Source: Kutzneria buriramensis (lineage in GTDB: Bacteria > Actinomycetota > Actinomycetes > Mycobacteriales > Pseudonocardiaceae). From it: 64,000 nt of DNA. Within the stretch, counting starts at the first letter, position 1. Every line of letters starts with the position of its first letter. The translations under genes and the position numbers were made by a program. Below, piece by piece: positions 42,928 through 64,000 of this stretch. The notes beneath the pieces were generated by a model. The model did not search any database. It saw only the letters and a program-made list of their open reading frames with translations, and was not told the DNA's origin. The stretch lies in contig NZ_QUNO01000005.1 in NCBI RefSeq assembly GCF_003387475.1, positions 248,001-312,000 of the forward strand. Reading direction: 5' to 3'.

Positions 42928-43038
42928 ACCACGAGTACGAAAGGCCGACGTGGCCGCGAATGAGTGGGACCCCTGCACGAGGCAGATGGATCGTTGGACT
43001 GCGATCTACGCCTCGTCTCGTGAGGCAGGACAACTCCC

Positions 43039-44073: not shown

Positions 44074-44086
44074 TCGAGGAGATTTG

Positions 44087-44341
44087 ATGAACACCCGCAA
44101 CCTGGCAACCAACCTGCAGTACATCGGACTTCCCGCAACCACCGTGGTCGTCGGCGGACTGGCCGACGACCACCACTGCATCATGCGCACCGAGGACGAC
44201 CAGTGGGAGGTCTTCTTCTACGAACGCGGTGAAAAGCGCCACCGGGTCGTCGTTGCAACCGAAGACGTCGCGTGCACCTACATTTTCGGTCTGCTGGCTC
44301 ACTCGCAGGTATTGTCAGAGAGGCTGGTCCTCGCAGACTGA
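44087..44341 (+). CDS. Probable immunity protein for the TNT toxin
   Basis: An 84-residue protein starting at ATG 44087 after a GAGGAG site. It is small and acidic, with the EDDQWEVFFYERGEKR strand pair. No family was recognised with confidence. Role inferred from position immediately 3' of the toxin gene, from size and from the CpnT/IFT parallel. Confidence 0.6.
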   Translation: MNTRNLATNLQYIGLPATTVVVGGLADDHHCIMRTEDDQWEVFFYERGEKRHRVVVATEDVACTYIFGLLAHSQVLSERLVLAD

Positions 44342-44473: not shown

Positions 44474-46612
44474 TCACGGGCGGGTCACGACCACGAGCTC
44501 GTCCCGAGCGCGGGTGGCCGCCACGTAGCGCAGCGACTGGGTCCGCAACTCGGCATCGGCCCGCTCAGCGGGATCCAGTCTTTCCAAGCGCGCCAGCTCC
44601 GCCGGCGACGGACGACCGGCCGCGAGCACGACCTTGGAGAACTCGGTGCCTTTGGCACGGTGCATGGTCATGACTGGCACCCGGCCCGCAGGAGGCCGGT
44701 CGCGATCGACCGCCCGAGCGTCGATGCCATGCTCGTTCAGCGCCGTCACTACCCGGTCGCGGTGAAAGCGATCCTGAACCAGGACCGCCACAGTCTCGGG
44801 AGCATCCCCCGCGTCCAGCCAGCTTCGGACGTGGTCAGCGACGGCCTGCAACTCGTCACTGAGTGAGTCGACGGATTTGATGGTCGGGGCCGGGCCAGTC
44901 CGGGCGGACCGGTAGCCGGTGGCCTCGGGCTGATCTTCCAAATCGACATACTGTCCGCTGTCGATGAGGCTCAACGCGTAGTGCAGGTTTTGAGCCGTGG
45001 TTCGGTAGTTGAGGGTGAGCCGTTGTGAGCGGCCGACGATGGCTATGCCGTAACGACCGAGGACGACACGGCTACCGTAGATGCGCTGATGAGCATCCTC
45101 GGCGATGAAAAGGTCGTCTGGATGCTCTCCGACGAGGGCGCGCAGCAGCTGCCAGTGACTGGGCGAGAGGTCTTGACCTTCGTCTACAAGCACATGGTCG
45201 GCAGGCTTGTCAATCTGCCGAGCCAACTGTGCGGCGGCAACGGCGGCGGCCTCGGTGAAATCGAGGCTGCCGTCGATGCGGCTCTGTGCCCGGTACGCCG
45301 CGATGATCGCCCACAAGGCGGATCGTTTGGCTCGGTCGAGGGCTACGCCCCGGCCGGGACGACGCACCCGAAGGTAACCGGCCTCATCGTGCACTTTGTT
45401 GGGAAGCACGATGTGGGCGTATTCGGTCGATAGGAATGCTTCGTTCGCCAACTCTGGTGACAGCGACGTGTCGACTGACTCGATGGCCTCGCGCCATCGG
45501 GTGCCGACGGTGCGAGCGATCGGTGCGGAACGTTCCTCACCGAGGACCTCGCGCATGGCAAAGGACAGGCTGCTGCCGGCGCCGCGCAGCACGGCGGAGG
45601 CCAGAGCATCCACCCCCGTGACGTGCACGCCCGGCTGGCCGAGGGCCTTGGTCTGCGGCACGCGCGGATCAAGTTGAGTCAAGCTGTCGCTGAGCGCCTC
45701 GGCGAGGTTGGTGGTGAACGTGGTCAGCACGATTCGGACCTGCGGGTCGCGACAGGCCAGCGCGCGGGCCCGGTGGACCAACACGACGGTTTTGCCGGTG
45801 CCCGCGCCTCCGGACAGGCGGAACGGACCGCTGTAACTGCGTTCGACGTAACGGCGCTGTTCGGGGTGCAGGAAGACTCGCCAAGCGCCGAAGTCACCGT
45901 GTTCGATGACGCGGCGCAGTTCTTCCTGGTCGCCGATGAACGCGTACTGGAGAGCCGCTGCGGGCCGCATGAGTGAGTGCAGGACATCGGCGTCGTCATC
46001 GCCGGACGGAGCGGCCTTTTCCAGTTGCATGCGCGCGACGATCGCCTCGACGGTGTCGCCGGCGGCGAGGTCGACCAGGATGGTGCCGATCCAGCCGTCG
46101 TAGCGCTGGGCGAGGTCGAGCACAGCGTCCTCGTCCGCGGCGGCGAGCGCCTGATCGGCGACGTCGTTGGGCAGGCCGAGGGTGTCGATCAGGGCCCCGT
46201 GGTCGTGGCCAAGACGGGCGAGCAGCGGCTGACCGTCCGGCAGGGCCGTGTTGGGCGGGACGGGCGCGCTCGGCGCCGCCGGCAATGCTATCTCCTCGAT
46301 CTGCGGCAAACCGTTGATCGGGTTGACACTCAGCCGTACGCGTTGTGCCACGGCGATCGCATCGTCGTGCGGCCAGATCCCGTGAATCACGTAGTGGCGC
46401 TCGTCGTTGCTGTCGAGGCGGAACATGACGGCCCGCCAGGAGTCGTTGACCCGGCCGGTGCGAACCCGCGGGTCCACAGCGTTCTGGATTGGTTCGACGT
46501 GCAAACCGGGAGTGGTGTCGTCAACGCTGAGCTTCTGCAGGAACGCCATGGCCTTGCCATGGATCGAACCGTCGAGCTTGCTGGCAAGCTTGCCCATGAT
46601 GATGGTCGGCAT
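44474..46612 (-). CDS. UvrD-type helicase with N-terminal RelE-like domain
   Basis: A 712-residue protein. Residues 1-90 look like a RelE/ParE fold (KLASKLDGSIHGKAMAFLQKL, DSWRAVMFRL, HYVIHGIWPHDDAI). The helicase has Walker A SGGAGTGKTVVLVHRA near residue 270, Walker B VLVDEGQDLSPSHWQLL near 477, TMHRAKGTEFSKVVL near 652 and LRYVAATRARDELVVV at the end. UvrD helicases unwind DNA 3'-5'. Its ATG at 46612 shares a base with the preceding gene's TGA (TGATG), so it is the last gene of the defence operon. Confidence 0.85.
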   Translation of the reverse strand: MPTIIMGKLASKLDGSIHGKAMAFLQKLSVDDTTPGLHVEPIQNAVDPRVRTGRVNDSWRAVMFRLDSNDERHYVIHGIWPHDDAIAVAQRVRLSVNPINGLPQIEEIALPAAPSAPVPPNTALPDGQPLLARLGHDHGALIDTLGLPNDVADQALAAADEDAVLDLAQRYDGWIGTILVDLAAGDTVEAIVARMQLEKAAPSGDDDADVLHSLMRPAAALQYAFIGDQEELRRVIEHGDFGAWRVFLHPEQRRYVERSYSGPFRLSGGAGTGKTVVLVHRARALACRDPQVRIVLTTFTTNLAEALSDSLTQLDPRVPQTKALGQPGVHVTGVDALASAVLRGAGSSLSFAMREVLGEERSAPIARTVGTRWREAIESVDTSLSPELANEAFLSTEYAHIVLPNKVHDEAGYLRVRRPGRGVALDRAKRSALWAIIAAYRAQSRIDGSLDFTEAAAVAAAQLARQIDKPADHVLVDEGQDLSPSHWQLLRALVGEHPDDLFIAEDAHQRIYGSRVVLGRYGIAIVGRSQRLTLNYRTTAQNLHYALSLIDSGQYVDLEDQPEATGYRSARTGPAPTIKSVDSLSDELQAVADHVRSWLDAGDAPETVAVLVQDRFHRDRVVTALNEHGIDARAVDRDRPPAGRVPVMTMHRAKGTEFSKVVLAAGRPSPAELARLERLDPAERADAELRTQSLRYVAATRARDELVVVTRP

Positions 46613-49600
46613 CAACGCTCCCCGGATCGATGCGAAGTGGCACCGGCGACGGCGACGGCGACCAGCTCGGGTGAGGGTTCCACCACCAGCCAGCCTGCTG
46701 CGGTCAAATCTGCGCGATCCTCCGGTGGCATGTGCGAAAAGGCGACAGCGATTCGGAGGTTGGGCCAGGACACGTCGAGCGCGATGCCGTCGGGGCCTTC
46801 CTTGCCGATTGCAGGCGGAGTGGCGAGCCCTTGGGCGGCGAGGGCCGCGACAAGCTCACGTTCCGCCCCAGGTGCCGCTCTGTCGTAGACGTCTGCCCAT
46901 GCTCCTACGGGTCGGTTGTCCTGCCGTTCTGTCTCGTGGTCAGCGCTACTTGACGGGGCGACAAGGCTGGTCGTGGTCACCACAGTGGGCCAGTCGCGTA
47001 CCGCGAGAGCATTGGACAGGCGCAGCCACCCTCGCCACGCGGCCGCGTGGGCGTCGTCGAGAACCTCGTTACGATCGTCGAGGACGACGGCCACGCGCAC
47101 CATCGTTGTGGGCAACATCTCGATGACCGCGGCAAGTGCGCCCACACGGTACAGCTGGACCCGGCGGTCTCCCGTAGGGAGATGTTCGTCGAGCAGGACG
47201 GCGCGGGCCACCTCCTCGAGGCTGACATCATCGGGGACCTGCATTGGCTGCGCGCCTCGGGACAGGAACATCGGCACAGCCCGGGCAACGGTCTGGACCG
47301 CGCCCGGATTGGGGGCAGTCACCCAGTCGACGAGCCAGTCCACCGGGCCACGACCGAGCGCCCTGTACGCCTCTGGTGGCGCCTGAAGCTGCGGCACGTT
47401 CATCAGGCTGCCGGCGAGGTCGGGGCTGTACCACTCCGGTCGACGGTCGGCGTCCTCCGTGGACAGATCATGGAGGTTGACACCAAGGACGATCAGGCCT
47501 GCGTCACGCAGGTTCGCTCGCTTGGTCGCGTCGTCGGCGAGCCGGTTGCAGGCAGCTGTGGCGTGATAGGCCCGCCCGTCCGTGAAGATCGCCACGGCCG
47601 GCACGTTCATGTCGGTGGTCTGCAGCAGGAAGTCCGGGCGGGAGTCGGCGATGTTCGCCTGCGGAGTGAGTGTCCACTGCCGGTGCGCACCGGGCAAGGT
47701 GAAGCGGACCAGATTGCCGGTCGGGCCCGGTGTCTCGGTGACGGCGGCACCGTTACGGCGTAGCTGGCCGACCAGCAGCCGGTGGAAAGCGCGTTCCAGA
47801 TGCGACTCCGGCTCCTCGTGGGGTGCCACCTCGGTCACGGTCCAGGCCGTCCCTTCAGCGGTCAGGGCATCGGGGCCCAACGCGAGCAGAGTGCGCAGGT
47901 GCCGCTCGGCCGAGGCGCGGGAGACGCGCCGGACCGCACCAGGAGCGGTGAACGGCAGCAGGCACCGATGACAGGCAAGCCGTTCCTCGTGCCGGCACTC
48001 GCAGTCGCGGACCCGGTTCCAGGCCAGCACGAGCAGTTCACGCAGGCGGTCGGGGTCGGCGTTCTCGGCGAGGTAGCCGGTGCCACCGGGGACCGCGTCG
48101 TGCAGCAGAATCGCCTCGTGGTTGTCCGTGCCGTCGGACAGGGTCGGATCCACGACGTGCTCGACGCGGATGTGATCCGGATGGCCACCCATCTGTTCAC
48201 GTAGGCCGAGCAGCAGCGCCGCAGCGAGGCTGGGCACGGCGAAGTCGTCGCCGATGGTCACCGAGCGAGGCAGCCGGATCACCAGCCCTTGGGTACGCAG
48301 TGTCCGCGACAGGGCAACCGTGCTCGTCACCTCGACGGCAGATGTCCGGTGTGGACACCAGGGACGGTGCTCGTGCGGCCGGTTCCGCCCGGATTCGGTG
48401 TCCTTCTTCCCACAGCCGGAACAGACCCGGAACAGCATGCCCTGCCGTTCGTGACCACCGACGGTTCGGGTGACTCCATGGCTCGGTGTCCCCAGATTGA
48501 TCCACCGTAGGTCGACCGAACGCAGATAGGTACAGCCGAGCCCGGTGTCCTCGACGAACCAGCGGCGCACCGCGTTGGCGGGGTCGATGTCGGCAGCAGT
48601 GACGATCTGGAACGCGGCGTGACCGCGCTCGTCGCGACGGTCGGAAATCGCCACCTCGTCCCGACGAACCTCGGCCGACACGCGGGTCAGCTCGACCACG
48701 TCGATGCGCTGGCCAGTGTCCTGGATACCGCGGCTGCCGCACCGGGGACACGGTGGTACGGGGAGTTCTCGACCGGATTCGGCGACGTCTGCCGCATAGC
48801 CGCAGGCAGGGCAGAACGCCCAGGTACGGATCGACGCGCCGTCAAGCCCTAGGTCGACCGCATCGATCGTGATCTCCCATCCACGGGCATAGAACGTGGC
48901 CCCTGGGGCGAATTCACGCAATGCGTGCGCCGAGCCACGTTGGAACTGCGCGGCGCCGTATTCGTACACACCAGTGTCCGGATCGGTCCAGGACAGGCCC
49001 ACATCGAGCGTGACCGAATCGTCGAGCAGGGTGTAGTTGGGCAGCAGCCCGTACTCCTCCAGGACGCTGATCCAGTACGTGCTGCGCAGATGAGAGAGCT
49101 GGCTGGCGGTCAACTTCCCGGTGGCCTTGGCCGAGCGCAGCGCCTGCCGGTCGTCGTCCGTCACGGCCGGCGACGCCACGCGCGCCTCCAGATCAGGCAG
49201 GAGCTTGACAATTTCGGCTTGCCGTTGCTGCAGTGTCTGCACAGTCTCCTGCCACCGCTGGCTGGCGGCGTGCACATGGTCGGCAAAGCCGCTGGTACGC
49301 GGCCCGTTTGCGGGGCGCAGCCACTCACGCAGGCCAGTCACCACCTCGTCCGGCAAGCCGTCGAAGGTGGCGACGAACCGCGGCAGGTACTCGTCAACGC
49401 CTTGCTCGGCGTGCAGGACAAGGTCGCCAAGGAACGTACCCGGCTTGCACGATCCGATCGCCCCGGCTGCCCTGCGCGGGTGAGGCCGTCGGACGTCGCG
49501 GGCGAACGCGTCCGCCAGATATGCGGTGTACTGCCGGCGCAGAATCTCCTCGGCCGCCAGGTAGGTCGCCGGTGGCCGTACCTCACCGTCCACAACGGAC

Positions 49601-52600
49601 AGTGGGTCGCCGAGCTTGGGCAGCTGCTCACCACGGCCGGTGACAAAGGCGAGGTCGAGAGCGTTGCCGGTGAGCCGCCCCGCCCGGCCCACGCGCTGCA
49701 GGTAGGAGGCGACGGTGGGCGGCAAGGAAGCCAGGAACACTGCCGAGAGGTCGCCGATGTCGATGCCCATCTCCAGTGTGGGCGTGGCCACCAGCACGTT
49801 CGGCGCCTGTGGGCTACCGCCCGAGTTGCGGAACCCGTCTTCGTAAGCCAGGCGAGTCTCGTCGTCGAGCAGGCTGGTGTGTTCCCGGGCCACGACCCGG
49901 CGCATGTCCGGGGAGGCGTACAGGCGGCGATAGAAGTTGTCCGGCAATGCCTCGGCGGTCAGACGGCCACGACACTGCACGTTCAGGCACGGTGCTCCGG
50001 CGAGCTGCTCGACTGAGGCCACGGAACCCGGAGTCGTGGCACGACACATGTTGCAGACCAGCAGGTGCCGACCGAGGGACAGGTCTGCCAGCTTGGTGGG
50101 CGCGACGACGACGCCGGACGCGGGGATGGCGTACACGGTGGCACCGGAGTCGCTGGTGGTGGTCGTGAGCACGCCGTCACGGGCCAGCCGGTCCAGCAGC
50201 ATCCGGGCCAGCCGCCCACCGTCGGGCGGGGAAACGTCGAGTACCCGGGCGGTCCAGCGGGCGTACCAGGACTGGGCGGACGTGACGGCGTCCAACCCGC
50301 GAGTCGATCCGCCTTGCCCACCGACCTTCGGATACGCCGGGGCGGGCCGGTCCCGGGGGAACGCTGGCATACCTTCACCGCGCGGGCGTCCGCCCCAGAT
50401 CGACCAGTCCCGTCCGTCGTCGGCGCGGTACCGATCGAACCACGGATGGTCGATCGCGCCCTGGGCGCGCATCCGGTCCAGCACGCCGCGTACCCACTGC
50501 ACCAGTGTCGAATCACTGCGGGTCTCGGCGTCGAGCTGGTTTTGCCAGGAGGTGCCCTGTAGGGCGGCGCGAGCGACGCCGGCCATGCGCGGGGGCAGGC
50601 CCGCCTCGACCTCGACGGCTACCGAGCCGGTCAGTTCCAGGGTACGGCCGGTGCGTGAGTTGAGGCCGAATTCCAGCGCGGCGTCGAGCGCGAGCCGCTT
50701 GCGGACCCGGGAGCGCACCGAGGCGCGTGCCCCGCGCAGCGTCTTCGCCTGCCAGAAGTCGGTGAAGGACTCCCGATCGGCGCAGTCGGGAGCGAGGATG
50801 CGGTAGCGCGCGAACGGGTCGTTGCCGGCCTGCCGGATCACTTCGTCGACCAGCGCGTCGAGGGCGAGCGCACCCTCGCTCACGGCATCGTGGAATACCG
50901 ACCGCAGGGTGAGTGTGTGCGAACGGGCCTGCACGAACCCGGCGCGGTGCGCGGCATCCTGCACCGAGTCGGTGAAGACGAGTGCCTTCTTCTCCCGTGC
51001 GTCGAGGGTGGGCGAGCCGAACAACGTGGACAGCGACACCGACAGCAGTGTGGCGATCGCGCTACCGAGGAACCGGATGCCGTCCTCCTGCTCGCAGGAT
51101 GGGCACGTGTCCTTGCGGCTCTGGTCGTCGGCGTCGGAACCGACGTTGGTGAGCACCGGCAGGATCCAGCCGTCGCGCAGATCGGGATCGTCCTCGGCCA
51201 CGCTGGTGAGCAGTTCCCGGTGGCGCACGGAGAACCACATCAGGCCGTCGACCGGCCGCTCGTCGTCGAGGCCGACGGCCGCCTCGGCGGGCGCGTACAG
51301 CAGCGGACGGAACCGGCCTTCCCTGGCCGCGTGGTTGCGGCGGATGTCGTCGTCGTCCACCGCGAAGCTGGTTCCCACGGGCGCCAGACCGATGCCCCAC
51401 CCCGACCGGCCGCAGTGGCGGCAGAAGATCGCCGGGAAAGACGGGCGGGCCTCCTCCGCGTCGCCGTCGGCGACCGGCGGTCCGTCATCACCCCACCGGA
51501 ACCGTGCCGAAGCCGCCGCGGCCCGGTCGATGCGTGTCAGCTCACGCACCCACAGGTGCACGTCGACCGACAGCGCGTCCCGGCCCACAACCGCGCGCAC
51601 ATGGCCGAGCGCCGCCAACACGTAGGACAGCAAGATCGTCACCCGGTCGGCGTCCCCGTCGCCCCGGCCGAACACACGAGCGGCCAAAGCGTCGAGGGGC
51701 ACCGCATGCTCGGCCTGCCGAGCCAACTCCTGGACGAGCGGATGCGCCCGGCACACCGCCAACAAGAACTCGGCCGAGCTGTCGTCAAACCGATCCGCGT
51801 CGACTCCATAGAGGACGCCCAAAATCGTGTGAGCGATCTGTGCGCCAGTGGCGTCGTTGCCGTGCACCGACACCGTATCGGCCGCTCCCGCTACGTCGAG
51901 GTCCTCGGTCCCGACCGGGGTGAGTCCGGCCGCTGCGACGGTTTCGACCGCGTCAGCGGTCCACTCGTTGAGACTCAGCCGGGTCTCGGTCACGATGGCG
52001 TCGGCGTCGAACCGCTCCCCGAAGACAGCGCGCGCGAAATCGAGCATCACCGTAGGGTCGCCCTTGTCGCCCAGGGTCGCCGAGGTGGCGACCGGAGTAG
52101 CAAGGCCGAGCGGTCGAGCGCGTGTCGCATCGTCGATGCTCGGGTCTTCGTCGAGCCAGTGGCTCTTGAGCGCCAGTCCGAGCCGGCGCAGCAGCATCGC
52201 GACATCGGTGCCCTGCGCGCCGTCGTACGTGTGGAACTCGTCGAGTACCAGGTAGCGCAGGCTGGTCGACGACTGCCGCCACAGGTCCTGGTCCTCGTGG
52301 CGCAGCAGCAGTTGGTCGAGCATCTTGTAGTTGGTCAGCAGGATGTCCGGCGCGCTGTCCCGGATGATCGCCCGATCGGTGATCAGCCCGTCCGAGGTAA
52401 CCGTGGTGCGGGTTGACCCTTTCTGTCCGATATAGAGCGCAGCGGTCACGTCGGCGAGAGCGGGATGCGTGGTGAGCAGTTTCGTCAGCCGGGCCGCCTG
52501 GTCGTTCGCGAGCGCGTTCATCGGATAGAGGATGAGCGCTTTCGTACCCGTCACGCCCTCCCGGCGAGCGCGCAGCACGTGGTCGAGGATCGGGTAGAGG

Positions 52601-55900: not shown

Positions 55901-57686
55901 CGAGTTGCCGCACCGCTTCGATGGCGAACGCCCCTGAGCCCAGGGCGGGCTCGCAGACGGTCATCTGCAGGATCTCCGCCGCGGCCGTAGTGCGGCCGTC
56001 CTGGTCGAGCAGTTCTTCGAGGGCTTGGCCGACGGTGAAGCGGGTGAGTACCTCGGGCGTGTAGTAGGACGCGGACTGTTGGCGCTCCCGCCCGGCCAGG
56101 CGGAACACGAACGAGCCCTTCTGGTGCAGCACCGGCCGCAGCTCACCCGTGTGCGGGTCGACGGTCTTCACGAAGTCGGCCGGCGCGATTCCGTCGGCTC
56201 GCTCGACGGGAACGACCCATGACCCCTTGGAGCCGTCACCGTTCTTGGCCACCTCGTAGAGGTCCGTCTCGGCGAAAAAGCCGGTGTAGGACATCAGGCC
56301 CTCGTAGACCGCGCCGAGCTGGTTGATGCCCAACTCCGCGTACGAGATGAAGCCGCGGTCCTTGCCGCGAGACTCCTTGCTCAGCAGCAGATGGGTGAGC
56401 ACCTGCTGCAGCGCGGCGTTGCCCAGCCCAACGGCATCGATGTGCGCGGTCGCTTCCGGCCGGAACAGGTCGGCTCGCAGCGCGTTGAACGGCAGTCCCT
56501 CGGCGAACGCCGAATCATGTTCGTCCTCGCTGCTGCCGCCTACCGCCATCGGGGCGTGTCCGGTGTCGACCAGCCCGAACAACACGCCCATTGAGTCGTA
56601 CAGGTGGGTGCCGTTGCGGGACCGTGGGCTGGCCAACTCGACCTGGACCAGCTCGCGCAGCCGGTCCAGGCTGTAGCCCTGGTCGTACTCGCGGGCGCCG
56701 ACCGGGAGCACGCCCAGTTCGGGCGATGCCTCGGCGTAGAGCAGGAACAGGACGCGGTAGAGGAACCGCAACGCCTGCTTGGCCAGCGGCTGGGCCTCGC
56801 TGGCCGGCAGTGGATCGAGTCCTTTGTCTCGCCGGCGGGTGACCACCTCGTTGGCGATGATTTCGATGGACAGGCGGACTCCGTCGCGCAGGTCCTTGGA
56901 GACGCCGACGGTGTGTTTGATGGAGGCTTCGAGAACGTCGTGCCACCACAGCTTGCCGTCGGCGTCCGGTGCGATGGACTGGGCAGAAAGGCAGGTGAGC
57001 GCGCGATCGATCTCCCCGCCCTTCTTCCCCTCGTTGCGTTCGCAGACCAGTTGCACGTCAACGGCGAGGTAGCGGCCCTCGGCCCAGCGCTCCCGCTCGG
57101 CGAGCAGCACCCAACGGCCGGCGAGCACGAGGACGAGGTCTGGGGCGTCGTCCGCGACGAACAGCGCCGAGGTCAGCCGCGCGGCCGACTTCACCTCCTC
57201 GGCGTCCTCGCTGAGTTGCACGGGCTCGCGCAGGGTGACGGCGTCGCGGGCGAGCAGGTCCTCGACCACGGCGACCGGTCGAGCGGTCATGACGACCAGG
57301 GGTGCGTGCTCGGTGACACCCGGAGACGACACCCGGAGCAGCGGGCCCTGCCGGTCGAGGACGAGGCCATGACCGGTCAGTTCGAGCACGTCAAGTAGCC
57401 GTTCGTGGACTGCGGCCGCGGCATTGTCGGCACTGCGTCCGTCGCGTGCGTCGGCCTCGGCGGCCGGGTCGAGAAGTTCGGCCAAGGCCGCTAGGTCGGT
57501 CTCCAGGCCCTGCCGGGCATCGACGAACCGTGATCGGGGTGTTTTCCTCCCCTCCTTGGCCTCCGCGTCCCAGAATGCCCGCCGCTCCAGCACCTTGGCG
57601 TGGAAAGACTCACTCTTGGCTTCGGTGGTGAAGTAGTGCTCCGAGATCCAGCCCTCACCGACGAGGATCGCGTCCGACCCGTTCAT
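52947..57686 (-). CDS. Eco57I-type N6-adenine DNA methylase (DrmMI-like)
   Basis: A 1,579-residue DNA methyltransferase. SAM motif I is VCEPALGSGAFAIEAVRQL near residue 580 and the catalytic motif IV NPPWV is near 963, so it is an adenine (amino) methylase. The long N-terminus (1-560) and C-terminus are typical of class 1 DISARM DrmMI and of PglX-like proteins. The ATG at 57686 overlaps the drmD stop by 4 bases (ATGA). The C-terminal target-recognition part (coding bases about 53,420-54,520) is visibly less GC-rich than the rest, suggesting exchange of specificity. The reading to 58106 is shadow. Confidence 0.85.
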   Translation of the reverse strand: MNGSDAILVGEGWISEHYFTTEAKSESFHAKVLERRAFWDAEAKEGRKTPRSRFVDARQGLETDLAALAELLDPAAEADARDGRSADNAAAAVHERLLDVLELTGHGLVLDRQGPLLRVSSPGVTEHAPLVVMTARPVAVVEDLLARDAVTLREPVQLSEDAEEVKSAARLTSALFVADDAPDLVLVLAGRWVLLAERERWAEGRYLAVDVQLVCERNEGKKGGEIDRALTCLSAQSIAPDADGKLWWHDVLEASIKHTVGVSKDLRDGVRLSIEIIANEVVTRRRDKGLDPLPASEAQPLAKQALRFLYRVLFLLYAEASPELGVLPVGAREYDQGYSLDRLRELVQVELASPRSRNGTHLYDSMGVLFGLVDTGHAPMAVGGSSEDEHDSAFAEGLPFNALRADLFRPEATAHIDAVGLGNAALQQVLTHLLLSKESRGKDRGFISYAELGINQLGAVYEGLMSYTGFFAETDLYEVAKNGDGSKGSWVVPVERADGIAPADFVKTVDPHTGELRPVLHQKGSFVFRLAGRERQQSASYYTPEVLTRFTVGQALEELLDQDGRTTAAAEILQMTVCEPALGSGAFAIEAVRQLAEQYLKRRQNELGVRIDPDEYPRRLQEVKAYLALHNVYGVDLNATAVELAEISLWLDTMVEGLSAPWFGLHLRRGNSLVGARRAVYQRRQVSDKSWLNEVPRDVPLASLVEDIEAGRVAGGGIHHFLLPSIGWGSSAEVNEAKEARDLYPESRARLKTWRKNVTSKPTQRQIEALCDLARRVEKLWQIATNRLGVAESEIRRSVPVWRGQDIPSGGKVQRAEIEAALADPSGAYRRLRRVMDAWCALWYWPVSEAFVEEVTGQAGDAVTPPNLDQWIEGMRMLVGVHAGKRRAPEGQLTFGTAVSWEDLNVYEELDLGLAGCLTVDATLRAHPWLRVCEAVADREGFFHWALDFAPVFVKGGFNLQVGNPPWVRPRTDFEALLAERDPWWKLAERPSVTAKERKRAEAWTDRRCVDTAAEGVATTAAAIAFAGSVANFPQLERLTPDFYRCFMVQAWRNASPVGVVGLIHPESHFTDEKAAALRCDAYRRLRRHWQFVNELKLFEIHDQVSYGVHVYGAVQPVPDFRMATSLYHPDTVIRSLDHDGSGPEPGIKDPDGNWDVRPHRSRITTVTDETLGMWHAILESPETPVRQTRMVYAVNRSTVSVLDKLSHARRIGELELHFSEGWHESRDRKSGYFESEWGKPASWDDVILQGPHLFVATPMYKAPNKTMLHNQDWSATDFEALSADAIPVTAYKPRGDRSRYARDYTHWGDQNAHPARNFYRVAWRAMAANKNERTLIPALIPPGSTHVHTVSSVSSVSSEPESLVAMLAVLSSLLADFFVRAAPKSAITAATVRRLPYANDAFLSELVLRTLRLNCIADAYGDLWYRCYRRSFREDAWAGGLTHARRQPLGAVRPVWDVDTPLRIAADRRQALVEIDALVALALGLAADELCTIYRTEFAVLYGYDRNVYYYDANGRLVPNSVLTVWRKKGDRITEEERTATNQAGNAYTYELPFVTLDREADMRQAYAHFERLLEERS

Positions 57687-60592
57687 CGCGTCACACCTTC
57701 CACGTCCGGGACGACGACCAGTAGCGGCCGTGCGAGTTGTCGGTCCGGTGCCATGGCCTGCACCATGGCCCGTTCCTGTTCCACGCTCGCTCGCCGGTGT
57801 TTGATCTCGCTGCGTTGGATGAGCGCTTCGGCATCGTTGTCCCAGCGCTTCAGTCGGGTGGACCACTGGTCCACTCGGCTTGCCACGTCGTTGGCGGCTG
57901 CTTCGAAGAGGGTGAGCAGGTGCTTTTCGGCCTGGTCGACCGCCGGGGCCACGAGCCTCTGGAAAGCCTCCACGTCGTCGATCGGCCCCGGGTTGACGCG
58001 CGGCCGGTCCCAGCCCAGCGAGGCCAGCGCCTCCCGGGCCGAGCTGTGCGGGGCGATCAGTGCGAAAGACGGATCGTCCTGCGCTGGGAACTGCGCGGTC
58101 AGCCAAGCGACCGACACGACCTGGCCGCGCCTGTTGGTCAGCGTGCCCACGAGTAGGACGGTTGGGGCGTTCACGCCGCCGCGTACCGCGAAGACCTCGT
58201 TGCGGCCCAGCACGGCCAGGGCCCGGTCTGCGGCCCAGTCGAGGACGGGGTGCAGCGGAGCGAGATAGTGTGCGTCCGGCCAGCTCAGTTTCTTGCTGTC
58301 GCGCAGCGCCGCGGCGAGCCGGTCCTTGCCGCGCGCCGGGGTGGTCGCGAGCACCAGCTTGTCGGTGACGTCACGTTCGGCGAGGTACTTCTGCGGCAGC
58401 ACGTCCAGGCGCTGCACGAGGTCGGGTGGTGGGTTCAGCTCGACAGTGCCGAAGGCGGCGTCTCGGCGCCACCCGACTCCACCGCGTGCCGGTGGCGCCG
58501 TCGGGTCGATGAAGGCTTCCCGTAGTGCATCCTCCAGATACGACACCTCGTCGTCGTACAGCATCGAGCCGAGGTCTGTCCCGGCGGTGGTCTCCGACTG
58601 GTGCGTCGCCGACGGCTCGGGCATGGGTGCGGGTGGCGCGTCGAAGAGCTGGGCGAACAGCGCGCCGAGGTCGTTACCGGCCGTGACGGCGGCGACCGGG
58701 CGGACCACGTCGTCGAACTCCTTGCTGCCGGCCAGCACGGCGCGAATGTCGTCCTCCTCGCTCTTGACGTCGTAACGCCCCATCAGGGAAGCCACGTCAC
58801 CGAGCGCGGTGTGTGCCTCGTTCTCCTTCTCCACCAGCTTGGCGAGGATCCGGATGTCTCCGGCGAACCGTTCGCTGGCTGGGTCGAGCAGCAGTGCCGT
58901 GATGCGCGGGGCGTGTTTCTGCCCGTATCGGTCGATGCGACCGTTGCGCTGTTCGATGCGGATGAGGCTCCAGGGAATGTCGTAGTGAATCAGGTCGTGA
59001 CACTGGGCGTGCAGGTTCACTCCCTCGGAGGCCACGTCACCGGTCACCAAGACCCGCACCGGCGCCTGCTCCTGCTTGAACGCCTCCACGATGTTCTGCT
59101 GTTCGTCGTCAGCCAGCCCGCCATGCATGAGCGCGACAGCGTCGGCAGGCAGGCCAAGGTCACTGGGAAGACTGCGGTGCAGCCAACGCAGAGTCTCCAG
59201 GCGCTCGGCGAACACCACCGCCCGGACCGGTGAGCCGCGGCCCACCCCGATCTGTTTCAGGTGCTCGACGAGCCGTTGGTACTTGGCTGGCGGCCGCCGC
59301 AACGTCTTGTCGTTGAGCTCAGCCAGCCGGTGCAATGCCTGTCGTTCCACCCCGGCCCGGTCGTCGTGCCCGAGGCGCCCCAACCGCCCGTCGATGGTTT
59401 CTTTCAGCGCGGCCGGCGAGGACAGGAACGCCTTGGCCAGCGTCCACGGAAACAGCGATGCGTTCTGCCCGGAGTACGGGCTGCCGCCACGACCCGGCCA
59501 CAACCAGGTCTCTTCCAGTTCGCGGGCCACGGCGTTCTCTTCGTCCGTCGCCGGCACGAGGACGTTGTCCGGCTCGCGCCGTTCGGCCCAGTCGCCGCCG
59601 ACGACCTGGGCGACCTCGGGGCTGTGCCGGTGCCGCCGGATGACCAGCCGTCGTATTTCGTCTGGGTCGAGCCGGTCATCGGCCGGCACGGACGAGGGGT
59701 CCAGCAACCGCAGCAGCTCGGCGAACGAGTCGGCACGGCCATTGTGCGGGGTTGCCGAGGCGAGGATCAGCGCCTCGGCGTTGCGGGCCAACAGCCGCGC
59801 CAGCCGGTTGTTGAGCGTCGCCGCGTTGGACAGATTGTGCGACTCGTCGATGACCACGGCATCCCAGCGCTGCTTGCGCAGGCTCGTCACGTACCGATCG
59901 GACTTGAGGGTGTCGATCGAGATGATCACCCGCTTGTAGTAGGTGAAGGGGTTTCGCGTTGCCGGCAGCTTCTGGCGCACGCGCTGAATGCCGGCGGAGT
60001 CCAGCCGGACGAACGGCAGCGCGAACCGGCACCACAGCTCGTGCTGCATCTGCTCCAGCACATGCCGCGGGGTCACGACGAGGATCCGTTCACCACGGCC
60101 ACGCCGCACCAGTTCCGAAAGGATCATGCCGATTTCGAGGGTCTTACCGAGGCCGACGGCGTCAGCAAGCAGAATCCTCGGCCGCAGGTTCACCGGATCG
60201 AGTGCCTTGCGCACCGCCGACTGCTGGTAGCTCAGCGCGTCAGCCAGTCCTTGGACGGCCACTGACAGCGAGCGCTCCCCGAGTGGCACGGGGATCTTAC
60301 GAATGGTCGACTCCAGCCATAGCCGAGCAGTGCGGTAGCGCGGGCTGTCGTCGGCCACTACCTGCGCGCGGGCCGGCTCCAATGGAACGACCTCGTCGAG
60401 GCTCGTGTAGAACGAGGCGCTGGTGTCGCGGACCAGTTCGCCGAGGCCCTGCACGTGGACGAGGGTGCCGTCGGCGGTCTCCTCGACCGCTCGGACCAGC
60501 CACTCTTCGTCGCGGATCACGACGATCGATCCTGGCGCGAGTGCCACGCGGTCCTCGGACTTCGTTGCCGTCACAGATACGTTCTCCGTCAT
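57683..60592 (-). CDS. drmD: SNF2-family helicase DrmD-like
   Basis: A 969-residue SNF2-type ATPase. Walker A is LLADAVGLGKTLEIGMIL near residue 147, DESH box VVIDESHNLSNAAT near 250, ASATPHNGRADSFAELLRLL near 280 and the second lobe VTGDVASEGVNLHAQCHDL and RNGRIDRYGQKHA near 553. It matches the DISARM class 1 DrmD helicase in order and size. The ATG at 60592 is used (GTG 60616 gives 8 more residues). It heads the coupled run drmD-drmMI-giant helicase-UvrD and is divergent from the vsr gene. Confidence 0.83.
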   Translation of the reverse strand: MTENVSVTATKSEDRVALAPGSIVVIRDEEWLVRAVEETADGTLVHVQGLGELVRDTSASFYTSLDEVVPLEPARAQVVADDSPRYRTARLWLESTIRKIPVPLGERSLSVAVQGLADALSYQQSAVRKALDPVNLRPRILLADAVGLGKTLEIGMILSELVRRGRGERILVVTPRHVLEQMQHELWCRFALPFVRLDSAGIQRVRQKLPATRNPFTYYKRVIISIDTLKSDRYVTSLRKQRWDAVVIDESHNLSNAATLNNRLARLLARNAEALILASATPHNGRADSFAELLRLLDPSSVPADDRLDPDEIRRLVIRRHRHSPEVAQVVGGDWAERREPDNVLVPATDEENAVARELEETWLWPGRGGSPYSGQNASLFPWTLAKAFLSSPAALKETIDGRLGRLGHDDRAGVERQALHRLAELNDKTLRRPPAKYQRLVEHLKQIGVGRGSPVRAVVFAERLETLRWLHRSLPSDLGLPADAVALMHGGLADDEQQNIVEAFKQEQAPVRVLVTGDVASEGVNLHAQCHDLIHYDIPWSLIRIEQRNGRIDRYGQKHAPRITALLLDPASERFAGDIRILAKLVEKENEAHTALGDVASLMGRYDVKSEEDDIRAVLAGSKEFDDVVRPVAAVTAGNDLGALFAQLFDAPPAPMPEPSATHQSETTAGTDLGSMLYDDEVSYLEDALREAFIDPTAPPARGGVGWRRDAAFGTVELNPPPDLVQRLDVLPQKYLAERDVTDKLVLATTPARGKDRLAAALRDSKKLSWPDAHYLAPLHPVLDWAADRALAVLGRNEVFAVRGGVNAPTVLLVGTLTNRRGQVVSVAWLTAQFPAQDDPSFALIAPHSSAREALASLGWDRPRVNPGPIDDVEAFQRLVAPAVDQAEKHLLTLFEAAANDVASRVDQWSTRLKRWDNDAEALIQRSEIKHRRASVEQERAMVQAMAPDRQLARPLLVVVPDVEGVTR

Positions 60593-60694
60593 CGAGTGCA
60601 AGAGAGGTTCATCCACAGCGCATGGTCATTTTTGCGGCCCGCAGCGTAACTCGCAGTGAGAGCTGTCGTGGTCTCCTTGGCTAAGGTCGAGGAC

Positions 60695-61129
60695 ATGGAC
60701 CACTCGGTGGCTCGGCCAGCACCGCTCGACGCTGCGACGTCAGCTCGGCTGCGGCGCCAACCACGCTCCGCCACCAAACCGGAGGTCGCGCTACGTCGCG
60801 AACTACACCGCCGCGGCCTGCGGTTCCGTGTGAACCACCCAGGGCTTCCCGGTCGCCCAGACCTTGCATTCACCCGAGCGAAAGTCGCGGTCTTCGTCGA
60901 CGGATGCTTCTGGCACTGCTGCCCCGACCACGGCACGTTGCCTCGCAACAACCGGGATTGGTGGCGTGCCAAGCTCGACCGCAACGTTGCCCGCGACCGA
61001 GCCAAGGACGCCGCGCTCACCGGCCTGGGGTGGAGCGTCCTGCACGTGTGGGAACACGAGGCGCCTGGTACGGCCGCCGATCGGGTCGAGGCCGAATGGC
61101 GGCAACGGCTTCCCTCCGTCACGAGCTGA
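60695..61129 (+). CDS. vsr: Vsr-like very short patch repair endonuclease
   Basis: A 144-residue nuclease. Vsr signature TKPEVALRRELHRRGLRFR, PGLPGRPDLAFTRAKVAVFVDGCFWHCC, NNRDWWRAKLDRNVARD and GWSVLHVWEHEAP are intact, including the catalytic Asp (RPDL) and the zinc cysteines. Vsr nicks T:G mismatches left by deamination of 5-methylcytosine. It is divergent from drmD and convergent with drmB (11-base overlap). TAAGGT (60682-60687) 7 bases before the ATG fits a leaderless promoter. No cytosine methylase is seen in the window. Confidence 0.85.
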   Translation: MDHSVARPAPLDAATSARLRRQPRSATKPEVALRRELHRRGLRFRVNHPGLPGRPDLAFTRAKVAVFVDGCFWHCCPDHGTLPRNNRDWWRAKLDRNVARDRAKDAALTGLGWSVLHVWEHEAPGTAADRVEAEWRQRLPSVTS

Positions 61130-62861
61130 CCGCCATACGCAGATAACCGTCGGCGCCGAACAGCGTCTTCCGGTTCAGGAAGCGGTTGAAGAACCGGCAC
61201 GACGGCTCTCCGAGGTGCACGCAGGCAGTGCACGCCCCGCTGCCCCGGCTGCACCCCGGATCCAGGGGACAGCGATGCTCGGCGTCGACGAACGCAGCCA
61301 ACAGATCGTCGAGATTGGACTCGAAAACCGCCTGCATGCCACCCAGGACGAAGTCGCCGCGGGCGGCGGCATAGACGAAGAACGCCAAGTGGCCAGGAAG
61401 AAGGTATTCGCTCAAAGCGTCGCGTTCGATGCCGGAGAAGACCGCGGTTTGGCGGATGAACCGGTGCGCGTAGGTGTGGACCAGCCTGAGCACGTCGGCG
61501 CCGGGTGTGTCCATCGACTGGTCTTCGCGTTTGTCGGGGATCACTGCCGACTGCAGGACCGCAACGCGCGCCGCAACTGGATCACTGTCACCGATCGACC
61601 AGCCGGTCAGCCGGTGGCCACGACCCGACAGCCAGCTTGCCACCCGTACCGGGTCCAGACGTACCAGAAAAGCCTCCGTCTCGGCGAGGTTGCCGTAGAG
61701 GCGGTAGACGCCGCGCTTGCGTCGGAACGGCACTAGCCGGCACTTGGCTGGGTCATCCTCGCCTCTGGTGTAGCCGTACATAGCGCTCAGCACCGGGAAC
61801 CGATCGACCAGGTCCAAGCCGTCCATGCCCGCTCGGGTGAGCGCCGCCGGGTAGCGGTCCCGGTAGCGCAGGTCGAGCGAGTCCCCAGGCGTCGTGCTAC
61901 GCAACGCGGTCGTCGGCGTGCGGCTCTCGGCGAGTGCCATGGCGATGTCGACGGCTTCACGCTCGGCCTCTTCTCGCCGCGTACCCGGCAGTGAGTCGAC
62001 CGGGTGGTCGCCGGGTTTGGCGAGCTGTCCGCCTTGCTCGGCCATGTCCGCCATCGTCTGGGCGAATGCCGGGTCTATGCCGTCGGCAATCAACTTCGCG
62101 AGGAAGTCCTCTTTGGTCTGCTTCGCGGTGACGTCCGCGGGGCGCTCGGCGGTCAGGCCCTCCACCACCCACACGAGAGCCTTTCGGGCACCGCCGGCGA
62201 GCTTGAGGCCTTCGCGGTGCTCCGGGCGCGGAGGGTTGATCAGCACCATGCCGCGCGGCGTGTAGACCGTGCGGGCCTTGTGGACGTTCCACCGCAGTGT
62301 GCCATTGCCGCACGGGCAGGTCCGGTTGAACCCGAGCCCCTGCATCGTCTGGGTGTGGCAGGTCGGGCACTTGAACGTGATGTCGGCAGCCTTGGCGCTT
62401 TTCGGGATGACCACCATCACGTCGTCGTGCTCTTTGCACCGCCGGATCCATGGCACCTCGATCGCGCCACAGTCGTGGATCCCGACGAAATGCAGCTGGC
62501 CCCACTTGCGCTGCCCGCATTTGCAGGGCCGCTCAACGGATCGGCCAATGCGCTTGCAGGCCCGGCACAGCCACACCTCTGGGTATCGCTCGACCGTGAC
62601 GCCGCGCCGCTCATCGAGCTCCACGACTTCGATCTGGGCACCCCGCAACAGTTCGTCGCCTACGCCACCGTCGGTGTCGTGGACGAGCCACGCTCCGATC
62701 TCACGTAGCAGGTTCCAGCGGACGAGGTCCGTGTCGACCTGGATCGGGCTCGGTGCCGACCACTCGGAGACACGGTAGATGTCCCCTCGCAGGTCGACCG
62801 TTTGGTCAGGCAGGAAGGTCCGCAGGATCTGGCTGCCACTTCGACTTCCCAAGATCGTCAT
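61119..62861 (-). CDS. drmB: DUF1998 protein DrmB
   Basis: A 580-residue zinc-rich protein of the DISARM DrmB type. Cysteine sets LCRACKRIGRSVERPCKCG, HDCGAIEV, FKCPTCHTQT and TCPCGNGTL lie in the first 200 residues, and a C-terminal one CPLDPGCSRGSGACTAC near 550 is the DUF1998-type cluster. DrmB acts with DrmA in sensing and processing phage DNA. It starts 13 bases after the drmA stop. Confidence 0.83.
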   Translation of the reverse strand: MTILGSRSGSQILRTFLPDQTVDLRGDIYRVSEWSAPSPIQVDTDLVRWNLLREIGAWLVHDTDGGVGDELLRGAQIEVVELDERRGVTVERYPEVWLCRACKRIGRSVERPCKCGQRKWGQLHFVGIHDCGAIEVPWIRRCKEHDDVMVVIPKSAKAADITFKCPTCHTQTMQGLGFNRTCPCGNGTLRWNVHKARTVYTPRGMVLINPPRPEHREGLKLAGGARKALVWVVEGLTAERPADVTAKQTKEDFLAKLIADGIDPAFAQTMADMAEQGGQLAKPGDHPVDSLPGTRREEAEREAVDIAMALAESRTPTTALRSTTPGDSLDLRYRDRYPAALTRAGMDGLDLVDRFPVLSAMYGYTRGEDDPAKCRLVPFRRKRGVYRLYGNLAETEAFLVRLDPVRVASWLSGRGHRLTGWSIGDSDPVAARVAVLQSAVIPDKREDQSMDTPGADVLRLVHTYAHRFIRQTAVFSGIERDALSEYLLPGHLAFFVYAAARGDFVLGGMQAVFESNLDDLLAAFVDAEHRCPLDPGCSRGSGACTACVHLGEPSCRFFNRFLNRKTLFGADGYLRMAVSS

Positions 62862-62874
62862 GTCGTCCGCCCAG

Positions 62875-64000
62875 TCAGTCGTGGATGGGAGCGGTGGCTT
62901 CGACGTCCCGCAAGCTCCTCATCGGAGGATTCGGGCCTAGTTCACTGATGAATCGCGCCTTGGTGGTCGGGTCCTCCAGATCGGCGAACCATGCCTTCAG
63001 CCAGTCGAGGATCTGCTGCTTGTGCAAGGTGTCCTCGGCTCCGTCCAATCCAAGAACCTCCGCCACGGTCGCGGCTTCCTGCGCGGGGATCAGGCCGGCA
63101 TTGCGGGCGTAGTCGCGCAGTCTCGACGGGGTGCTCAGCCGCTGCCGGCTCGCCGGTTCGAGGAGCATCAGTATTCGGGCTGCCACGACGCCCGCGATCG
63201 TGAGATCCAGGACACGGCGGCTGCGGCGGGTGATCGGGATCGCGTCAACGAACCGGTCGCCCTGACGTACGTACGGTCCGAAGTGGCGGAACGTCTGGGC
63301 GTCGCGCTCCCGGCCGATCTTGTGTAGGACGTACACCAGACCGGGGTGCCGTCGCCCTACCCGTGCGGTCGTCTGGATGAACTCCGCCGTGGTCAGCGGT
63401 AGGCCCAGCATCACCATCGTGTTGAGCCGTTCGACGTCCACACCGTGGGAGAGCATCGAGCTTGCTGCGACGACGTGGACGCGTTCGTCGAAGTCGTCTT
63501 CAGGGTGCTCCAGTCGTTCGAGGATGCCGCGGACTTCGTCGAAGTCCGTCTGACCGGTGAGCTGCTCGACGTTGATGCCATCGACGGTGTTGTTGCTGCC
63601 CAGGCTGCGCCCGGCGGCCTCCACGTCGTAGAGGGTCGTGCCATAGACGACATTGGTACCGTACTGACTGATCAACATGTCGGCGTGCCGCGGGTCGACG
63701 CCTGCCTCCGCGCAGACCATTGTTGGGTCCTTCAGCAGGTCCCGTATGCAGTGCTGCAACGTGTCCAGGGTGCGGTCGCTCACGTGCTCCAGCGTCACCC
63801 CGCGCGGGGCAACGGCTACGAACCGGCGCAGAGGCTGCTTGGCTGGCACTGTCCAGAACGACTCGCCCGGTCGCGGGCCCGGTTGCGGGAACACCCTGCC
63901 CTGGCGCCGGTAGAGCACATCGACCTGGCGATCGTAGCCGGTCAGGGTCGCGCTGCTCGCTACGATCTTCGTCTGGCTGCCGCAAAGCTCGCTCTGTAGG
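62875..64000 (-). CDS. drmA: DISARM helicase DrmA (partial, N-terminus beyond window)
   Basis: The C-terminal 374 residues only; the frame continues past base 64,000. It begins in LQSELCGSQTKIVASSATLTG (SAT motif III), then shows the helicase C-terminal lobe: AASSMLSHGVDVERLNTMVM and TTAEFIQTTARVGRRHPGLV (motif VI). It ends 13 bases before drmB. Together with DrmB it forms the DISARM core pair that binds single-stranded DNA. Confidence 0.8.
   Translation of the reverse strand, partial: LQSELCGSQTKIVASSATLTGYDRQVDVLYRRQGRVFPQPGPRPGESFWTVPAKQPLRRFVAVAPRGVTLEHVSDRTLDTLQHCIRDLLKDPTMVCAEAGVDPRHADMLISQYGTNVVYGTTLYDVEAAGRSLGSNNTVDGINVEQLTGQTDFDEVRGILERLEHPEDDFDERVHVVAASSMLSHGVDVERLNTMVMLGLPLTTAEFIQTTARVGRRHPGLVYVLHKIGRERDAQTFRHFGPYVRQGDRFVDAIPITRRSRRVLDLTIAGVVAARILMLLEPASRQRLSTPSRLRDYARNAGLIPAQEAATVAEVLGLDGAEDTLHKQQILDWLKAWFADLEDPTTKARFISELGPNPPMRSLRDVEATAPIHD

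Follow-up and report, generated by a model that had tools for sequence, protein, structure and literature searches.

A candidate composite defence cassette in Kutzneria buriramensis combining a sigma factor-bearing DISARM-like module with an ARMADA type II block

A 64-kb stretch of DNA from Kutzneria buriramensis (the window, part of a 637-kb contig in a 12-Mb genome) ends in a series of minus-strand genes, several of them encoding helicases. Do these genes form an enlarged version of one known anti-phage system, two systems that happen to be neighbors, or a new combination? A preliminary description had taken them for a class 1 DISARM core to which a Druantia-type giant helicase and a RelE-UvrD protein had been added. 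Together with the adjoining stretch (L003; coordinates above 64000 are given in window numbering), the locus contains a cassette of nine genes: a C5-cytosine methyltransferase, a sigma-70-family gene, drmA, drmB, vsr, armA, armB, armC, and armD. We favor, with a probability of roughly 0.55, a composite anti-phage cassette in which a sigma-bearing DISARM-like module is joined to an ARMADA type II effector, with the sigma factor serving as its private control.

Gene content of the cassette

Four of the nine genes form a minus-strand block at 44474-60616. The armA gene (57683..60616) encodes a BrxHII/RapA/DrmD-like SNF2 helicase of 977 amino acids (aa) with Pfam domain SNF2-rel_dom, a Walker motif (GLGKT) at residue 155, and PADLOC scores of 306 bits for DrmD, 216 for DrmA, 180 for BrxH, and 175 for HmaA. 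It overlaps by ATGA with armB (52947..57689), whose product is a 1,580-aa PglX-like DNA methyltransferase of the adenine type (Pfam Eco57I; motifs GSG at 584 and NPPW at 965). A GTGA overlap leads to armC (46612..52950), which encodes a 2,112-aa YprA-family helicase with Pfam domains DEAD, Helicase_C, and MZB (DUF1998; expectation value E 2.2e-11), a C-terminal extension, and motifs GSGKT at 110-114 and DEFH at 237-240. A TGATG overlap joins armC to armD (44474..46612), encoding a 712-aa UvrD/GajB-type superfamily 1 helicase (Pfam UvrD-helicase, E 2.5e-20; PADLOC matches to NERD+UvrD and GajB) with its Walker A motif at 269-275 (GAGTGKT, 269). The preliminary description had reported these overlaps correctly, and all six of its minus-strand genes are present as open frames in the order given, with the drmA-like frame continuing to 65934.

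The main text of a 2025 preprint by Bell et al. (PMC12458937) describes ARMADA type II as four genes in a strict order, encoding a BrxHII-like ArmA, a PglX-like ArmB, a YprA-like ArmC, and a RelE-UvrD ArmD. In E. coli, the system acts against phages and requires all four. The window block has the same four families in the same order, its catalytic motifs are offset by no more than about 25 residues from those reported for the E. coli proteins, and MZB/DUF1998 lies, as expected, in the YprA homologue. Because order, families, and catalytic-motif positions agree with the published system, we file the block as ARMADA type II. Judged by its sequence, this part of the cassette is therefore already known, and the anti-phage activity of ArmA-D in the window is predicted by analogy. 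The window proteins may be present in the supplementary tables of the preprint.

This assignment overturns the "class 1 DISARM core", as the proteins that resemble DrmD and DrmMI are ArmA and ArmB, and the published gene order and families of ARMADA type II fit the block. The DrmMI label for the large methyltransferase also fails, with a full-length REase_MTase_IIG match of 1496 bits versus 171 bits for DrmMI. The giant helicase is not of Druantia type: DruE profiles match it in pieces only, the best at 281 bits. Rather than the giant helicase and UvrD having been added to DISARM, it is the DrmAB module that is added to ARMADA. For the RelE-UvrD protein, the UvrD part stands and the RelE N-terminus was not confirmed by sequence. 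According to the main text of the preprint, the C-terminal extension of ArmC bears a Vsr-type nuclease and the N-terminal 110 aa of ArmD are RelE-like. In the window family, the C-terminus of ArmC has conserved PDF...A-I-FTDG...H columns in six sequences, and its sequence profile had no match among PDB sequences. The N-terminus of ArmD is a conserved 110-aa domain in 10 sequences, with no RelE match in a PDB sequence-profile search.

The remaining five genes form the second module. The drmB-like gene (61119..62861, minus strand) encodes a 580-aa DUF1998 canopy protein, and the drmA-like helicase gene (62875..65934, minus strand; 1,019 aa) runs past the window end at 64000. The DrmA-like protein scores 340 bits with the PADLOC DrmA profile, and a profile of six relatives matches the solved Serratia DrmA (7s9v_A) at E 4.2e-77. 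The corresponding values for the DrmB-like protein are 98 bits and, for a profile of five relatives against Serratia DrmB (7s9v_B), E 1.1e-9. It had been proposed to look past 64000 for drmC or other genes. What lies there is a sigma-70-family gene (65934-67472, minus strand; 512 aa with sigma regions 2, 3, and 4), whose TAG stop overlaps the GTG start of drmA by one base (TAGTG), and a divergent C5-cytosine methyltransferase gene (67725-68852, plus strand; PF00145, E 1.4e-54). The earlier remark that no drmC is visible was borne out, with no DrmC among the PADLOC matches listed for the cassette genes or for eight flanking genes. The ninth gene was spotted because the gap between drmB and armA is conserved among relatives. 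This is vsr (60668..61129, plus strand), which lies antisense in the gap and encodes a very-short-patch-repair endonuclease (PF03852, E 1.1e-18; PADLOC Vsr match) with 74-85% identity in 11 relatives. PADLOC scores of the C5 methyltransferase were 336 bits for DrmMII, 302 for MTase_II, and 247 for DruM. Because the highest score is with DrmMII, the methyltransferase sequence points to a position toward the class 2 side of DISARM.

Recurrence and co-inheritance

We identified 17 distinct actinomycete loci with this DrmA, consisting of the window, G085, G363, G294, and 13 loci from a scan of genome contigs. The scan used two peptide patterns and thus finds close relatives; its loci include Saccharothrix yanglingensis (G143, also L049) and Prauserella flavalba (G106, also L052), each counted once. 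All 17 loci contain drmB, and in 16 the sigma gene adjoins drmA, the exception being L059. ArmA and ArmB are found together in 15 loci (not in L055 or L056; ArmA is broken in L050), the C5 methyltransferase in 12 (the L053 contig ends too early to judge), and Vsr in 12. ArmC and ArmD are present in all six loci with downstream DNA examined. The set of nine is complete in the window, G106, G085, and G294, and also in G363, whose drmB seems frame-shifted near its end. Finding the same order in most of the 17 loci is more than chance would produce. Named hosts belong to the Pseudonocardiaceae, Micromonosporaceae, and Actinopolymorphaceae. The cassette is nevertheless rare and patchy: in a class-wide sample of 394 genomes, three (the window's own included) had a strong match to the N-terminal part of the sigma factor and three had a DrmA of at least 75% identity. 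Two further weak matches to the sigma N-terminal part had no other cassette gene in the roughly 3 kb seen.

The two modules are co-inherited. In a tree of DrmA with 28 rows, the 17 loci formed one group with a Shimodaira-Hasegawa-like approximate likelihood ratio test (SH-aLRT) value of 97. In a tree of ArmA with 49 rows, the 14 usable cassette loci formed one group with a value of 99. These are 'quick' support values, and long-branch warnings apply to L096, L098, L099, and L105 for DrmA and to L019 and L025 for ArmA; the ArmA tree omits L050, whose armA is broken, and retains L016 and L126, whose contigs stop a short way upstream of the gene. Pairwise identities of DrmA and ArmA agreed across the 14 loci (Mantel r = 0.88, p = 2e-4). 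Flanking genes of the window, G143, G106, and G085 had no BLAST match to one another at E 1e-5.

The preliminary description had proposed that synteny would show whether the giant helicase and UvrD vary independently of the supposed DrmD and DrmMI. They do not: of the 17 relatives of ArmB whose downstream DNA was usable, 16 have both, and the remaining one (G172) has neither. The variable part is DrmAB, which is missing from the upstream DNA examined (shortened for L016 and L126) in 32 of the 49 loci of the ArmA tree. For L109-L127, the DNA examined was upstream only, placing ArmC and ArmD outside its scope.

A second pairing of DrmAB with ARMADA type II was found in G303 (L105, L128) and G488 (L112), and less closely in G317 (L111). 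The order in G303 and G488 is a sacsin/TmtA-like ATPase-helicase, a UvrD helicase, DrmAB from a distant lineage, and then ArmA and ArmB; G303 additionally has ArmC, ArmD, a C5 methyltransferase, and Vsr. In G317, the DrmAB of distant lineage is separated from ArmA by about 10 kb of other genes. Well-supported branches separate the DrmA of the second pairing from the window DrmA, in a tree with long branches present, and we therefore read this pairing as independent. On sequence evidence, then, DrmAB and ARMADA type II seem to have been joined at least twice.

The sigma-bearing module also recurs outside of actinomycetes. A Roseomonas plasmid carries vsr and sigma-DrmA-DrmB-C5 methyltransferase as a set of five genes, with no ARMADA match in the 31 kb examined. 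Its identities to the window are 53% for DrmA, 46% for DrmB, 51% for the methyltransferase, 53% for Vsr, and 40% for sigma. Among IMG/VR contigs (L132-L135), L134 has sigma-DrmA-DrmB with a NERD-UvrD helicase, Vsr, and methyltransferase, and L133 has sigma-DrmA-DrmB with a partial methyltransferase at the contig edge, both without an ARMADA match. L132 is a near-identical copy of L134 that ends before the position of sigma, and L135 is a DrmA remnant. The module may be carried by phages or prophages, since L133-L135 hold phage tail or terminase genes (PHROGs) beside it. Phage records gave no DrmA match, and two further scans of viral contigs gave only the same contigs. A Burkholderia plasmid carries an interrupted version of the module with a sigma gene nearby, and the more distant DrmA loci (L096, L098-L105) had no sigma match in up to 20 kb examined. 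Because the same sigma-DrmAB-methyltransferase-Vsr core has NERD-UvrD, ARMADA type II, or neither beside it, these observations suggest exchangeable effectors.

Genes bordering the window cassette were also recorded. On the plus strand 3' of armD, positions 41677-44341 encode a PPE-like protein and a second product with a TNT (Tuberculosis necrotizing toxin) domain at its C-terminus; the small gene that comes next may be an immunity gene. Past the C5 methyltransferase, a serine-recombinase-like gene with a partial Pfam Recombinase domain and two small genes occupy L003:7358-9875 (window 69357-71874). The recombinase-like gene suggests that a mobile element adjoins the cassette.

The sigma factor and its upstream motifs

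Sigma factors linked to DrmA stand apart from RpoD/HrdB in our tree (support 94/89), which contains long branches including L131, L133, and L035 and long proteobacterial and viral rows. Most core-binding positions and -35-contact residues are kept. At E. coli position 440, which we take to contact promoter position -12, all 16 actinomycete DrmA-linked sigma factors have E or D versus T in 10 of 10 HrdB proteins (10 of the 20 primary-type rows in the tree were compared). Of the four copies from proteobacteria and viral contigs, three have T and one has R. Sigma is the least conserved of the products compared, with mean identities to the window over 11 loci of 43% for its N-terminal part and 65% for its sigma part, next to 70% for ArmB, 79% for DrmA and DrmB, and 80% for ArmA (74% over eight loci for the methyltransferase). 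A profile of the N-terminal part aligned in register with region 1.1 of E. coli RpoD at a weak E of 0.08.

Sigma genes also accompany other helicases. In Micromonospora lupini (L060:3570-10001), sigma shares one open frame of 2,144 aa with an Hhe-like helicase-MTES_1575 nuclease. A genuine fusion is possible; it would be the only instance, the frame contains an internal start, and the composition of the linker is ambiguous. A DruE-like helicase of 1,568 aa (L035:115-6096) occurs in six of 200 genomes from three genera, the query genome included (L137-L142; L035), and a sigma-70-family gene lies directly 3' of it in all six. The five other sigma factors are 38-45% identical to the L035 copy, and the helicases 63-68%. 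We rejected the window sigma as MzaA, the sigma-70-family component known from MZA, because it scored 260 bits versus a curated cut-off of 800 (NCBIfam NF041931). Across genomes, the MzaA model matched sigma domains in 187 of 197 with none over the cut-off, making it useless as a marker.

Two motifs recur upstream of the sigma-drmAB operon (upstream of drmA in L059). The exact sequence GAACN4GTTC is present in 8 of 17 loci, and arose in 0 to 0.8% of 500 shuffles per locus. It fits the LexA box of S. venezuelae (tCGAAC-N4-GNNCGa) as given in a portion of PMC9380542 and the LexA boxes of M. tuberculosis as given in a portion of PMC8607333. A second motif, TTGTCR-N11-TANNNT, is present in 9 of 17 loci (eight exact and one with one mismatch), with a chance expectation for exact copies of 0.08 per 64 kb in the window. 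This motif fits the RecA-NDp/PafBC promoter, and published work names the RecA-NDp motif and links it to PafBC. Both occur together in eight loci, with a spacing of 24-25 base pairs in all eight. If functional, the paired motifs would link a DISARM lineage to both DNA-damage pathways of actinomycetes.

Proposed function and relation to known systems

Gene content, joint inheritance, recurrence across phyla, the conserved sigma residues, and the upstream motifs in relatives are observations. We infer from them the cassette's anti-phage function, its division of labor, the role of sigma and the promoters it would target, and any control of the window copy by DNA damage. The first module would be a DISARM-like lineage in which the C5 methyltransferase marks self DNA and Vsr mends the T:G mismatches arising from deamination of 5-methylcytosine. 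DrmA and DrmB would act as sensor and motor, with the helicase loading on unmodified DNA that has single-stranded ends, and the dedicated sigma-70-family protein would be produced in step with DrmA. The second module, ARMADA type II, would supply another methyltransferase, the ArmC helicase with its reported nuclease, and RelE-UvrD, and would replace DrmC as the effector. Sigma most likely would form a private RNA polymerase holoenzyme with an altered -10 preference, by which transcription of the defence genes could proceed during shut-off of the host sigma or an attack on the cell. Where a LexA box and a PafBC-type promoter precede sigma-drmAB, as in about half of the loci, single-stranded DNA made by phages would arm the operon.

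Several observations weigh against this explanation. Salinispora L055 and L056 have sigma-DrmAB only, without ARMADA, and Salinispora L059 has methyltransferase-DrmAB-ArmAB and the start of ArmC with no sigma; therefore, sigma and ARMADA are each dispensable for the remaining genes. L056 and L059 share an upstream flank with 95-96% DNA identity over several kb, yet hold different cassette remnants. L059 has both promoter motifs before drmA, and its loss of sigma still fits a bypassable regulator. The 32 ArmA loci lacking DrmAB in the DNA examined mean that ARMADA does not need DrmAB. Neither upstream motif is present in full in the window, in the four loci closest to it (G085, G143, G106, and L054), or in L060, L061, or G363; with both absent near the window sigma gene, any DNA-damage control there would be conjectural. 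Besides the two upstream motifs, alignments of the gaps gave no defensible motif common to the sigma and armA promoters and none identifiable as used by sigma. The RelE domain of ArmD and the nuclease of ArmC were unconfirmed by PDB sequence profiles. L096 (G312), the nearest other DISARM in the class sample with a DrmA 50% identical to that of the window, has DrmC and no sigma match. Finally, we know of no phage assay of this cassette.

How do other explanations fare against the same evidence? One is that a sigma-bearing DISARM and an ARMADA type II, each self-sufficient, happen to be neighbors in a mobile defence island and move together without cooperating. The sigma-bearing module alone in Roseomonas, L133, L134, L055, and L056 agrees with this, as do the ArmA loci without DrmAB and a junction without translational overlap, at which drmB and armA are 0.2-0.5 kb apart and, in 12 of 17 loci, have an antisense gene between them. 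It sits poorly with a linkage stable enough to have reached at least three families, with the matching divergences of the two modules, with the differences among the four flanks compared, with the joining of DrmAB to ARMADA type II seemingly at least twice from distant DrmAB lineages, and with no DrmC found beside DrmB. We regard mere adjacency as possible but rather doubtful. The idea of a class 1 DISARM that gained a Druantia helicase and a RelE-UvrD gene can draw on DrmD, DrmMI, and DruE profiles that do match ArmA, ArmB, and ArmC, and on a DruM match of the C5 methyltransferase (247 bits). However, the four genes as a set fit ARMADA type II, the large methyltransferase is matched far better by the type IIG profile than by DrmMI, and the top score of the C5 methyltransferase is with DrmMII. 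We rejected this idea as highly improbable given that the ARMADA type II description fits and that relatives of ArmA-D without DrmAB, which already contradict it, were found.

A different possibility concerns sigma itself, which could be a working subunit of the machine that recognizes melted promoter-like DNA, or senses takeover of RNA polymerase by a phage, and loads the YprA-type helicase. This would suit its position as the gene immediately preceding drmA, whether in actinomycetes, Roseomonas, or viral contigs, its retention with DrmAB where ARMADA and the methyltransferase are gone (L055, L056), and its rapid divergence (43% and 65% identity for its two parts versus 79% for DrmA). The single open frame with a helicase-nuclease in M. 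lupini and the sigma gene directly 3' of the DruE-like YprA helicase in six of six carrier genomes point the same way. Set against it are L059, which keeps the system without sigma, contact residues that resemble those of a working sigma factor, and the doubts about the M. lupini fusion (one case, an internal start, and a questionable linker). A subunit role strikes us as unlikely. Equally speculative is a broader immune class in which a YprA-family helicase (DrmA here; DruE-like in six other genomes) and a dedicated, fast-changing sigma-like part would carry out transcription-guided restriction, the latter either directing the helicase-nuclease to melted invader DNA that resembles a promoter or detecting the capture of RNA polymerase by a phage. 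Returning to the composite cassette with a private sigma, both sigma roles could be tested with few genes because the Roseomonas set comprises only five. The repeated joining of DrmAB with ARMADA type II can serve as a natural experiment on how defences with several helicases come together and on what substitutes for DrmC.

When placed in context of known systems, the window cassette most likely represents a new DISARM variant made of DrmAB, an ARMADA effector, and a private sigma factor. The earlier suggestion of a new or little-described DISARM-like subtype thus holds for the sigma-drmA-drmB part and fails for the four-gene block. In the open-licence papers searched (for PMC12458937, its main text), no sigma factor was reported with DISARM or ARMADA. 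The published ARMADA type II differs in being a four-gene system, and the main text of Bell et al. describes neither DrmA/DrmB, a C5 methylase, a Vsr gene, nor sigma beside it. In that main text, "sigma" occurs in a supplier's name only and DrmMII and cytosine are absent; many uncharacterized DISARM-like classes are mentioned.

In passages of Bravo et al. (PMC9142583), DISARM typically comprises DrmMI and/or DrmMII, DrmA, DrmB, and DrmC, of which DrmC is often missing and non-essential, and DrmAB favors 5'-overhang DNA, with methylation reducing its activity. The window shares the DrmA and DrmB core, homologous to the solved Serratia DrmAB. The DrmA match begins at about residue 276 of the window protein, whose first 275 residues are unmatched to Serratia DrmA; the Serratia N-terminal part with the trigger loop is unmatched in turn. 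Class 2 DISARM adds DrmE. Neither DrmC nor DrmE is among the PADLOC matches listed for the cassette genes, and the sigma factor and Vsr are extras of the window module. From class 1 DISARM the cassette differs in that its counterparts of DrmD and DrmMI are ArmA and ArmB, which occur without DrmAB. The L096 locus has a C5 methyltransferase and Vsr in one frame, then a 769-aa protein without a PADLOC or Pfam family match at the thresholds used, DrmA, DrmB, and DrmC.

Druantia resembles the cassette in that ArmC and DruE are both YprA-family helicases, with partial DruE matches and a C5 methylase that also matches DruM. It differs in that DruA-D, DruF, DruG, and DruH are not among the matches listed and in that the DruM score is below that of DrmMII. 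A sigma factor in a defence operon has precedent, with MZA (MzaABCDE) the nearest, whose sigma-70-family component MzaA is documented in NCBIfam NF041931 and a portion of PMC9523054. DISARM has been described as a methylase, a helicase, a DUF1998 protein, and a nuclease, and a sigma gene before drmA from an alphaproteobacterial plasmid to actinomycetes departs from that description. This pairing suggests that some restriction-like systems carry their own transcription control or use the sigma fold for target recognition.

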